Source: Ensifer sp. WSM1721 (GTDB lineage Bacteria; Pseudomonadota; Alphaproteobacteria; Rhizobiales; Rhizobiaceae). Taken from it: 64,000 bases of DNA. The stretch is taken from NCBI RefSeq assembly GCF_000513895.2, contig NZ_CP165783.1, positions 1,488,001 to 1,552,000 of the forward strand. The letters are read 5' to 3'. Shown one piece after another: positions 34,632-41,310 of this stretch (positions within the stretch are counted from its first letter, which is position 1; every line of letters begins with the position of its first letter). The notes beneath the pieces were generated by a model, which saw only the letters and a list, made by a program, of their open reading frames with translations, searched no databases and was not told where the DNA came from. The position numbers and the translations under genes are program-made.

Positions 34632-36317
34632 ATGCCGGACGCGGACGCCACGATGTCTGCTTCATCTCTCGCCGAGAGTGGCTTTATCGCCGATACGGAA
34701 GAGCTCGTCTCTCTGTATGACGAGAGCTTCCACCTCGTCGACTGCTCGGCGACGCACAGGAAAACATACGCTGTCGATTCCCTTGTCGAAACGACCCTCT
34801 GGCACATCTATCCAGAGCTGCTGGCGCCCGGTCCGAAGTCCGCCGTCGAATTCGTCGCCGCAAGCGGACTGCCGCGCACCGTCGAGATCGCCGATGTTGC
34901 GACCGGAAGTCGTCGCACTCTCATCATCTTTCGCAGCGCCCGCGGCATCGGCGTCAGTGAATCGGACCGGAGTTCCACCTGCCGCGAGACGTCGAGCCAG
35001 AGCGAAAGCGACCGCGCACTTCTCCTTCACCAGGCGACCCACGACGTCCTGACCGGGCTGCCGAACCGGCGGCAATTCAGCGATCAATTGCGCAGCGCGT
35101 TGCCCGTGCCAGGGGTCGCGCGGCTGGCCCTCATGCAAATCGATCTCGATGATTTCAAGCCGGTCAACGACACGCTCGGCCACGGCGCCGGCGATATCGT
35201 CCTCAAGATGGCGGCGGAACGGATCAAGAGCGTGCTCGGGGATCGGGAGGTCGCGTATCGGCTGGCGGGCGACGAGTTCGCCGTCATCCAGTGGCGATCG
35301 GATCAGCCACGCGAGGCCGAGCGTCTGGCCGACGCGCTCGTCAACGCCTTCAGGGCACCATTCATCGTCGACGGCATCACCGTCTTTGTCGGTGCGAGCG
35401 TCGGCATAGCCGTCGCGCCCAACGACGGGAACGAGGTCGAGCACTTGATGAAGGCCGCGGACATCGCGCTCTACGCGGCAAAGAAGGATGGCCGCAGCCG
35501 GGCAAGGACCTTCACGCGCTCGATGCTGATCGTGCTCGAACAGCGGGAAATGTTGCGTCGAAGCCTGCGCACCGCGCTTCAGGAGGGACAGTTCTTCATC
35601 GAGTACCAACCGTTCGCAAGGCCCACCTCCTCCTCGATCGTCGGCTTCGAAGCGCTTCTGCGGTGGCGTCACCCCCTGGTGGGCGACATTCCGCCGAACG
35701 TTTTCATTCCCATGGCCGAAGCGGACGGCCTGATGAGCGAAATCGGCCAATGGCTGCTGGAGCGGGCCTGCCGGGCGGCCATGACTTGGCCGCCGCACTA
35801 CACGATCGCCGTAAATCTCTCTCCGGCGGAATTCCTGCAGGAGGGCCTTACGGATCGCGTGGCCCAGACCCTCGATCTCGTCGGAATCCGGGCTGATCGG
35901 CTCGAACTCGAGATCACCGAATCGGTACTCCTGGAACGAACGATCAACAATCTCGACACCCTCAATACCCTGAACCTTCTCGGCGTCCAGATCTCTCTTG
36001 ACGACTTCGGAACCTACTATTCCTCGCTGAGCTACCTGAAGAATTTCCCGTTCGATACGATCAAGATCGACCAGTACTTCATCAAGGACCTCGAGAGGGA
36101 CGAGAAAAGCCAGACGATCGTGCGCTCCATCATCGGATTGGCTCATGGCCTCGGCATGCATGTCACCGCCGAAGGGGTGGAGACCAAGGCTCAGGCAGAG
36201 TGGCTGCAGAAGGAGGGATGCGACCGCTTGCAGGGATTCCATCTCGGCTTTCCGATGCCGGCAGAGGCGATCGGCGAATTTCTCGGCAGGACGGCGGCCG
36301 TTCCATTTGCCCATTAA
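34632..36317 (+). CDS. GGDEF-EAL c-di-GMP turnover protein
   Basis: 561 aa, no membrane helix. Residues 1-130 are a short sensor-like region, possibly a reduced PAS. The GGDEF domain (about 131-290) has DLDDF at 171-175 and AGDEF at 212-216 in place of GGDEF, with no RxxD I-site. The EAL domain (about 305-555) looks complete: E340-A-L, N395, E427, DD457-458, K478 and E514. The protein is therefore probably mainly a c-di-GMP phosphodiesterase with a regulatory or weak cyclase domain; AGDEF variants can be active. GGAGG precedes the ATG. The FixK-type box upstream suggests oxygen control. Confidence 0.92.
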   Translation: MPDADATMSASSLAESGFIADTEELVSLYDESFHLVDCSATHRKTYAVDSLVETTLWHIYPELLAPGPKSAVEFVAASGLPRTVEIADVATGSRRTLIIFRSARGIGVSESDRSSTCRETSSQSESDRALLLHQATHDVLTGLPNRRQFSDQLRSALPVPGVARLALMQIDLDDFKPVNDTLGHGAGDIVLKMAAERIKSVLGDREVAYRLAGDEFAVIQWRSDQPREAERLADALVNAFRAPFIVDGITVFVGASVGIAVAPNDGNEVEHLMKAADIALYAAKKDGRSRARTFTRSMLIVLEQREMLRRSLRTALQEGQFFIEYQPFARPTSSSIVGFEALLRWRHPLVGDIPPNVFIPMAEADGLMSEIGQWLLERACRAAMTWPPHYTIAVNLSPAEFLQEGLTDRVAQTLDLVGIRADRLELEITESVLLERTINNLDTLNTLNLLGVQISLDDFGTYYSSLSYLKNFPFDTIKIDQYFIKDLERDEKSQTIVRSIIGLAHGLGMHVTAEGVETKAQAEWLQKEGCDRLQGFHLGFPMPAEAIGEFLGRTAAVPFAH

Positions 36318-36353
36318 CATCGTGTCGAGTTTCGCATGCGAAGGAGGAGAGAC

Positions 36354-36872
36354 ATGGCCGTAGCCGAACAAGAGCGAGCGGAAGCGCCCTTCGAACCCCT
36401 GCTCCAATTCGAGATGGAAATGGGAACCTTTCTTTCGGACTGGCAGCATTGCGACCAGTTGTCGACCTTCATGGCACGGATGATCAGTCACAACCGGGCG
36501 GATCCCGTCCGGCATTCGAATTTCTTCTCGTCCGCGCTCAACGAACTCCTGGAGGTGTCCTTTCGCGGCGCTTCGCCGGACGGCCAGATTGGCTGCGCCG
36601 TCTTTCGTCAGGGGTCGACCGAGCGAGTGAGGCTCACTTTCTCGTGCCCGCCCGGCCAGCGGCAGTTCTATCGCGAAGCGGTATCGAAAACCCGCAGGGG
36701 AAACGCCTACGCTCGCTATCTCGATGCGATTTCAACCGATTTCGCACCGAGCCGGGAGGCCGTTCTTCTGGATCTGGCGATCAATTTCGATGCCGAGATT
36801 CACCTGGAGGAGAACGACCCGCCGGCGATAACCCTCGTCGTCGACCTGCCACTTGAAGGAATGGTGAGTTGA
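36354..36872 (+). CDS. Degenerate slr1658-type (SiaB-like) regulator, pseudokinase candidate
   Basis: 172 aa. No database name comes to mind, but it aligns by eye with the kinase-like protein at 40409: DWQHCDQLSTFMARMIS against [18 protein letters not shown], and ALNELLEVSF against [12 protein letters not shown]. The N-box Asn (N74 in the other protein) is Val68 here and the GSGLG loop is missing, so ATP binding is unlikely. AAGGAGGAG precedes ATG 36354, right after a perfect palindrome TTCGCATGCGAA (36331-36342). Its stop overlaps the methyltransferase fusion gene. It probably acts as a binding partner of that protein's STAS-like half. Confidence 0.7.
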   Translation: MAVAEQERAEAPFEPLLQFEMEMGTFLSDWQHCDQLSTFMARMISHNRADPVRHSNFFSSALNELLEVSFRGASPDGQIGCAVFRQGSTERVRLTFSCPPGQRQFYREAVSKTRRGNAYARYLDAISTDFAPSREAVLLDLAINFDAEIHLEENDPPAITLVVDLPLEGMVS

Positions 36873-40404: not shown

Positions 40405-40408
40405 GCGG

Positions 40409-40960
40409 ATGACGACCTTATACGGATTGGAAGACCTCGCGATCGGAACGGGCGAAAACGTCACGAGACTCCGTCTCTTTGAGGGGCCGCTCGATCTCGG
40501 CTGGAAACATTGCGCGATGACATCGGACTTCGTCGCCGAGTTGGTCGCCCTGCGCTACAGATCCTCCCGCAACCTCTACAAGGACGTCCGCCACAATGTC
40601 GGCTACCTGACCAATGAACTCATAGAGAATGCGGTCAAGTTTCGCACCTCCGGCGAAATCGTCGTGGAGGCATCGATCTCGACCAGCAGCTTTCGGACAA
40701 AAGTTTCCAATTACGTCGACAGGGACACGGCCGAGCAATTTCAGCATCTGCTTTCAGAAATAACCGCCGGAGACCCTGGCGATCTGCTAATAAAGCGGAT
40801 CGAAGCGAATGCCACGGGCGCGGGTTCGGGCTCGGGGCTTGGCCTGCTCACCCTCATGAGCGATTATGGCGCTCACTTCGCTTGGGTTTTCGGATCCGGT
40901 GAACAGGAGATTCCGCTGGAGACCTACGCCTCGATTGCAGTCCCTGATCCCTCGAATTGA
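40409..40960 (+). CDS. slr1658-type (SiaB-like) Ser/Thr kinase-fold regulator
   Basis: 183 aa with a GHKL ATPase look: N-box [10 protein letters not shown] (69-78, Asn74) and a glycine loop [13 protein letters not shown] (137-149). This is the anti-sigma/SiaB type of switch kinase, expected to phosphorylate the STAS-like protein encoded next. It begins 4 bp after the phosphatase gene and overlaps the STAS gene. SiaB of Pseudomonas plays this part toward SiaC. Confidence 0.82.
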
Positions 40961-41310
40961 TGGGCGACAAAATGGAAGTCAAGGAAGACGAATATCGCGT
41001 TTGGTCGGAAGGCAAAGACATCTATTTCGACGGGACCATGCGCCTGCCCAGCACCGAGGCCTACGCCCCGATCTTGTCTCTGGTGATGAATGTTCTCGAG
41101 ACCGAACCGGATCGAATGACGATAGACCTCACGGGCTTGCAGTTTCTCAATTCGTCCGGGATCAACCTGCTCGCGAAGCTCACGATCGAAGCGCGCAAGC
41201 GGCCGAACATCCAGTTCACCGTCAGGGGAAGCTCGGAGTTTCCCTGGCAGTCGAAGTCACTGCCGAACCTGAAGAAACTGCATCCCGGCGTCGATCTTAG
41301 ACTGACCTGA
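40960..41310 (+). CDS. STAS-like (slr1659-type) partner-switch protein
   Basis: 116 aa. The core [20 protein letters not shown] resembles anti-sigma factor antagonists; the Ser pair at 65-66 is the probable phosphorylation site. It overlaps the kinase-like gene (TGATG), giving the classic kinase/substrate pairing with the PP2C phosphatase just before. No sigma factor is nearby, so its target may be the GGDEF-EAL protein or a methyltransferase complex; this is inference. ATG at 40972 is an alternative start. Confidence 0.8.

Follow-up and report, generated by a model that had tools for sequence, protein, structure and literature searches.

A rhizobial gene module that places a predicted partner switch beside a motif-stripped copy fused to a methyltransferase

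Why should a bacterium keep, beside an apparently complete partner switch, a second kinase/STAS pair that has lost the phosphorylation motifs, and what does the whole assembly control? The question is raised by five tightly spaced genes of Ensifer sp. WSM1721, located in a stretch of 64,000 nucleotides (the window; positions 1,488,001 to 1,552,000 of the 1.70-Mb contig NZ_CP165783.1; genome 6.33 Mb). In this order, which we call the core, they encode a predicted pseudokinase (kin1), a STAS domain (STAS1) fused to a methyltransferase, a Cache-HAMP-PP2C membrane phosphatase, a kinase (kin2) and a stand-alone STAS protein (stas2). An earlier note, made from the letters alone, had described these genes together with a GGDEF-EAL gene just upstream, and all six are present where it placed them, with the phosphatase gene between the two pairs. 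The comparisons presented here indicate that an apparently working switch and a stripped copy fused to a methyltransferase are conserved together in root-nodule bacteria and their relatives, often beside a gene for an enzyme that could synthesize or degrade the biofilm signal cyclic di-GMP. The window itself is part of a Sinorhizobium-type megaplasmid: the DNA relatives listed for it, a listing that may omit very near records, are Sinorhizobium megaplasmids, the best being 82% identical over the module.

The second pair fell clearly into its families. With a cut-off of 100 bits for each model, kin2 scored 165.5 bits against the slr1658 superfamily (NF047703) and stas2 135.3 bits against the slr1659 superfamily (NF047705). 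Together with the PP2C phosphatase they make up the component set of a partner switch, i.e. a GHKL kinase that carries an N-box and a glycine loop, a STAS protein with an acceptor serine, and the phosphatase. The latter matched SpoIIE with 135 bits and HAMP with 46 bits, its dCache_1 match of 35 bits staying under the cut-off of 45; no second SpoIIE-domain match was found in the genome, where kin1 and kin2 are also the only two matches to the slr1658 superfamily. The earlier note had spoken of a doubled slr1658/slr1659 module. This assignment stands for the second pair, but the first pair remained below both cut-offs (kin1 30.1 bits, STAS1 30.3 bits). That the two pairs are nevertheless homologous was confirmed by profile comparison, with a probability of 88% for the kinases (E = 2.9e-6, 123 columns) and of 90% for the STAS parts (E = 1.4e-6, 98 columns); plain BLAST returned a weak match for the former (E = 2e-5) and none for the latter. 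The fold check proposed earlier also came out in favour of a kinase relation, as the solved structure nearest to the predicted model of kin1 was SiaB of the SiaB-SiaC complex, followed by UsfX, SpoIIAB and RsbW. For STAS1 the relation rests on the profile; in structure matching, the methyltransferase filled the match list of the fusion. The C-terminal half of the fusion matched Methyltransf_11 with 68 bits and shows the features of a class I S-adenosylmethionine (SAM)-dependent methyltransferase, namely a Rossmann-type domain, motif I and an acidic residue after strand 2. In public records, kin1 (7773-8291 in locus L029 of S. meliloti CP140944.1) is named 'ubiquinone biosynthesis methyltransferase UbiE'. 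It gave no methyltransferase match in Pfam and NCBIfam scans and its predicted fold is kinase-like, and the name has probably leaked from the adjoining fusion gene.

The likeness of the kin1 model to SpoIIAB, RsbW and UsfX could also suggest that the module controls a sigma factor in the manner of RsbVW, the methyltransferase and the GGDEF-EAL protein being co-regulated passengers. We regard this as improbable, given that no sigma-factor domain was found in the ten window proteins scanned, neighbours at other loci not having been scanned.

Motifs were counted in 141 rows for kin1 and the fusion (114 distinct sequences each) and in 140 rows for kin2 and stas2, some genomes being entered twice. 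The N-box asparagine is absent from kin1 in all 141 rows, where V, T, I, M or L takes its position, and the NSSG acceptor site is absent from STAS1 in all 141, replaced by NNTA (96 rows), NNAA (22) or others (23). SAM motif I is retained in the fusion rows. Both the N-box asparagine of kin2 and the NSSG site of stas2 are found in 140 of 140 rows, and the glycine box of kin2 is unchanged in 138. The earlier claim that the first pair has lost these motifs and the second has kept them therefore holds without exception for the asparagine and the acceptor, but less cleanly for the glycine loop, since kin1 has a glycine at the first position in 2 and at the second in 11 of 141 rows.

Loss of both hallmarks and family scores of about 30 bits are what a decaying duplicate would display, and in such a case only the methyltransferase would matter. 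The ratio of nonsynonymous to synonymous substitution rates (dN/dS; medians over nine same-genus relatives, 9 comparisons each) speaks against decay, as values of 0.12 for kin1 and 0.13 for STAS1 indicate purifying selection. Moreover, N69, E70, E73 and other positions of kin1 are invariant across 16 diverse sequences, and wherever loci were read, kin1 and STAS1 occurred together, contig ends excepted. Judged by selection and invariant positions, the stripped pair is maintained; a vestigial first pair is unlikely on these grounds, and a pair devoid of any switching role is highly improbable. The lowest dN/dS of the module, 0.046, belongs to the methyltransferase domain, compared with 0.08 for the PP2C protein, 0.09 for kin2, 0.06 for stas2 and 0.095 for the GGDEF-EAL protein. 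Being both an invariant extra component and the most conserved part, the fused methyltransferase is probably central to the module.

The fusion gene was found in 31 of 33 same-genus genomes including that of the window (the copy in G008 is cut by a contig end), and a full-length fusion in none of 27 genomes from 27 other genera sampled. Within the window's family, taken to be Rhizobiaceae, the kin1 profile detected relatives in 31 of 297 genomes (14 of 109 genera) and, at class level, in 4 of 385 genomes, i.e. the window genome and three of one genus from another family. As the neighbourhood survey suggested in the earlier note now shows, gene order is strongly conserved. Outside the genus, 27 of 29 loci have the complete core in the same order, and contig ends cut short the remaining two. 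It is also complete in all 80 named loci, which are the best 80 of 264 and hence near relatives (Sinorhizobium, Ensifer, Rhizobium, Pararhizobium, Neorhizobium, Aminobacter, Mesorhizobium, Phyllobacterium and unclassified isolates). In a phylum-wide sample, 7 of 398 genomes exceeded the slr1658 cut-off; six belong to the window's family and have both pairs each. In a class sample, 3 of 289 genomes did so, all with a second, weaker match. Ensifer aridi (L059/L104) has a second five-gene core without the close GGDEF-EAL relative upstream, and a bgsBA-like pair in the same stretch.

As kin1 directly precedes the methyltransferase wherever both are complete, it might be a fixed subunit of a metabolic enzyme, PP2C, kin2 and stas2 regulating something elsewhere. 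However, kin1 was found in 120 plasmid records and kin2 in 119, from nearly the same genera (totals, not paired by record), so that the two pairs appear to travel together. We regard the fixed-subunit explanation as improbable.

We tentatively favour, with slightly less than even confidence, a membrane-sensed partner switch in which the active pair would act via the non-phosphorylatable pair on the methyltransferase and, in the branch with a GGDEF-EAL gene, also on the second messenger cyclic di-GMP (c-di-GMP). In a first tier, for which the motifs are in place and the biochemistry is deduced from them, the Cache-HAMP-PP2C phosphatase would remove phosphate from stas2 once its sensor is triggered, and kin2 would rephosphorylate it at the NSSG site. 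The second tier, whose architecture is observed, would consist of kin1, which lacks the N-box asparagine required for normal ATP use, and STAS1, which has no conserved acceptor; phosphorylation within this pair would not separate the two partners. This tier would be opened and closed by exchange with the first, in the simplest case by dephosphorylated stas2 displacing STAS1 from kin1. The methyltransferase would thus be the direct client. In the GGDEF-EAL branch, the same state of stas2 would also set c-di-GMP through the GGDEF-EAL enzyme, and c-di-GMP so set would serve the nearby CuxR/APS and BgsA-type polysaccharide systems. In a narrower form of the proposal, the phospho-state of kin2/stas2 would be passed on through kin1 and STAS1, the one a pseudokinase and the other not phosphorylatable, and would govern the SAM-dependent methylation of a target in signalling or in the envelope, with c-di-GMP control attached in one branch; this form is possible but held more loosely.

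Several observations weigh against this reading. The contact between kin1 and STAS1 is proposed by analogy, and the model of the fusion is of moderate quality (predicted local distance difference test score 75.6). T66 of NNTA occurs in 104 of 141 STAS1 rows, and 3 of the 141 have a serine at the first of the acceptor positions, so that some STAS1 domains could still be open to modification. The second loop glycine of kin1 is kept in precisely those 11 loci that are without the GGDEF-EAL gene (L080-L087, L091-L093), where kin1 may be less dead and may have a different function. These loci bear on the output as well. Outside the genus, the GGDEF-EAL gene lies upstream in 18 of 29 loci (18 of 26 in the window's family), and no GGDEF or EAL match was found in the fetched stretch of the other 11 (8 of 26 in the window's family and 3 of 3 in the other family; L080 and L085, on short contigs or contig ends, cover 5.5 and 6.6 kb). 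At its place stands a divergently transcribed soluble SpoIIE phosphatase of about 300 amino acids, confirmed by Pfam in four loci (L082, L083, L086, L091) and by a custom profile in the rest. The GGDEF-EAL gene, which the earlier note placed just upstream, does lie there in the window but is ruled out as an obligatory component by these 11 loci. Since a soluble PP2C replaces it there, c-di-GMP is, as far as gene content tells, a lineage-specific output that the core does not need. On a quick tree of PP2C, kin2 and stas2 (51 rows), the exchange of the two genes amounts to one change; a core tree with the single-pair locus L174 as outgroup could not be rooted, as the branch of L174 was far too long. 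In one of the 11 loci (L083), yet another SpoIIE protein, the third there, is encoded near the core; it includes a domain for cyclic-nucleotide binding (13557-14900).

Alternatively, c-di-GMP could be the real output, as in SiaABCD: stas2 would bind and set the GGDEF-EAL enzyme, and the pseudo-pair and methyltransferase would be an accessory modulator. The GGDEF-EAL protein matched GGDEF with 144 bits and EAL with 238 bits. It carries AGDEF in 130 of 130 rows and EAL motifs almost everywhere, none of the 130 rows has an RxxD inhibition site, and its N-terminal 130 amino acids have no Pfam match above cut-off. The retention of these GGDEF and EAL motifs also fits the two-tier reading. Its gene lies directly upstream in 79 of the 80 named loci, which as near relatives are biased to this branch, and 44 of their fetched stretches contain a CuxR-like gene and 19 a bgsA-like gene, which may lie to either side of the core. 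The two same-genus genomes in which the fusion gene is missing (G004, G018; core search by the fusion gene) also lack a close GGDEF-EAL relative, their best matches being 42% and 48% identical, compared with 86% in G001; CuxR is kept in both at 73-74%. Furthermore, the seventh genome of the phylum sample (G776), from another class, has a single pair with a SpoIIE protein, a stand-alone GGDEF protein and a periplasmic binding protein; among 48 genomes of its taxonomic order, such a single-pair system was found in G776 alone. In contrast, the core persists, to the extent that the contigs cover it, in the 11 loci without GGDEF or EAL match, G024 has a further core copy that lacks the close GGDEF-EAL relative, and the most conserved part is the methyltransferase. 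Taken together, c-di-GMP as the real output seems rather unlikely to us; in the two-tier switch, its control would be one arm in the branch with a GGDEF-EAL gene.

The resemblance to SiaABC-SiaD that the earlier note had pointed out extends to the plan, a single cluster of membrane PP2C, SiaB-fold kinase, STAS-like phospho-switch protein and c-di-GMP enzyme. In Pseudomonas aeruginosa, according to the available parts of two papers, the state of SiaC T68 is set by SiaA and SiaB and controls SiaD, which is activated by unphosphorylated SiaC (PMC7647112, PMC8457831). The module differs in having two pairs, the first stripped, where SiaABCD has one, in the fusion of STAS to a methyltransferase, and in a GGDEF-EAL protein instead of SiaD, with no c-di-GMP enzyme found in the fetched stretch of 11 of 29 loci outside the genus. 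Nor does it belong to the SiaABCD families: the phosphatase reached 128 bits against a cut-off of 700 for the SiaA equivalog (NF038263; residues 430-784 only), the upstream protein 97 bits against 290 for the SiaD equivalog (NF038266; GGDEF part only), the kinase did not qualify for the SiaB family (NF038262), stas2 matched only STAS, slr1659, anti-anti-sigma and MlaB models (E <= 0.1), and neither STAS protein matched the SiaC family (DUF1987). Strict membership being ruled out by these tests, the module would by analogy work like SiaABCD while standing outside its families.

Other systems share single features. Synechocystis slr1658/slr1659 are linked by the superfamily scores of kin2 and stas2, and the accessible text of one study reports poorer recovery from iron limitation once slr1658 was disrupted (PMC7555055). 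The one cyanobacterial locus at hand, on plasmid pA of Kovacikia minuta (L177), has a single slr1658/slr1659 pair, without a PP2C or methyltransferase profile match in 12.6 kb. The pair is directly followed by a SulP transporter gene and then by a STAS/cyclic-nucleotide-binding gene, possibly another output of the family. In HsbR-HsbA-HsbD of P. aeruginosa, as far as the available excerpt goes, phosphorylation of a switch protein selects between its partners, one of them a diguanylate cyclase; kinase and phosphatase domains are united in HsbR, and the excerpt notes no fused methyltransferase (PMC6482189). The CuxR/APS and BgsBA systems of S. meliloti adjoin the module here and are candidate downstream targets, not switch parts. 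The accessible text of one further paper names S. meliloti solely in its references (PMC3999984). No description of the module was found in the literature searched, which covers subscription papers incompletely and does not establish absence from print.

Table 1. Module and flanking genes, in window coordinates.
Feature	Position	Strand	Details
CelA-like glycosyltransferase and HlyD-type protein, bgsBA-like pair	30973..34184	-	
GGDEF-EAL gene	34632..36317	+	GGDEF 35034-35501; EAL 35559-36248
kin1, slr1658/SiaB-like pseudokinase, 172 aa	36354..36872	+	stripped N-box NELLEV 36540-36557
STAS-methyltransferase fusion	36869..38047	+	STAS (STAS1) 36896-37216; class I SAM methyltransferase 37265-38044
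STAS1 site NNTA, at NSSG position	37058-37069	+	within the fusion
Membrane phosphatase	38044..40404	+	Cache-like sensor; HAMP 39400-39549; SpoIIE/PP2C 39814-40398
kin2, intact slr1658-family kinase	40409..40960	+	N-box NELIEN 40613-40630; G-box SGLGLLTL 40832-40855
stas2, slr1659-family STAS protein	40957..41310	+	NSSG acceptor site 41149-41160
AraC-type regulator, CuxR-like	41367..42533	-	assigned by position and sequence; RRRWPR near N-terminus
UDP-glucuronate decarboxylase-like, UDP-sugar epimerase-like and GT2 glycosyltransferase genes, APS-type polysaccharide operon	42815..46751	+	

Within the module (Table 1), kin1 and the fusion gene, the fusion and phosphatase genes, and kin2 and stas2 overlap by 4 bases each, and a GGAGG directly before the ATG at 36354 supports this start of kin1. 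The polysaccharide neighbourhood expected from the earlier note is present on both sides. By gene order and sequence, the downstream region is taken to be the CuxR/APS region: the AraC-type regulator shares 78% identity with its counterpart next to this module in S. meliloti, and its RRRWPR stretch is retained by at least 95% of 60 homologues. Such RxxxR motifs serve c-di-GMP binding. The CelA-like/HlyD-like pair we take to be bgsBA, with the gene names bgsA and bgsB, and the S. meliloti counterpart genes presumably carry the locus tags SMb20447-SMb20456. The plasmid that carries the module in S. meliloti also encodes, some 50 kb away from it, an 89% identical relative of the CelA-like glycosyltransferase. 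The gap between stas2 and the CuxR-like gene measures 56 bases in the window; in S. meliloti this interval is occupied by SMP-30, DUF1236 and SDR genes (12779-15956 of L029). In other same-genus genomes, the CuxR orthologue adjoins the module in 24 of 29 complete first-copy loci. Exactly one CuxR relative (E <= 1e-20) was counted in 7 of 10 genomes, the others having 2, 3 and none, and presence of CuxR changes ten times on the tree, an upper figure since the stretches differ in size. Because CuxR-like and bgsA-like genes vary among loci, the c-di-GMP polysaccharide link is recurrent and not part of the core. In the parts of the literature available, the CuxR/APS and BgsBA polysaccharides of S. 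meliloti are described as activated by c-di-GMP (PMC9495663, PMC5567048, PMC10519070).

The module lies on pSymB of Sinorhizobium meliloti 2011, a few kb from the CuxR-like gene, and can therefore be tested directly in a standard genetic model; it may supply an input for the c-di-GMP-activated polysaccharides. To our knowledge, known partner switches act by freeing sigma factors or by controlling diguanylate cyclases. A stripped second tier that carries a methyltransferase would, if true, add a novel type of client and show how two switches can be linked in series, and serine phosphorylation would be turned into methylation.

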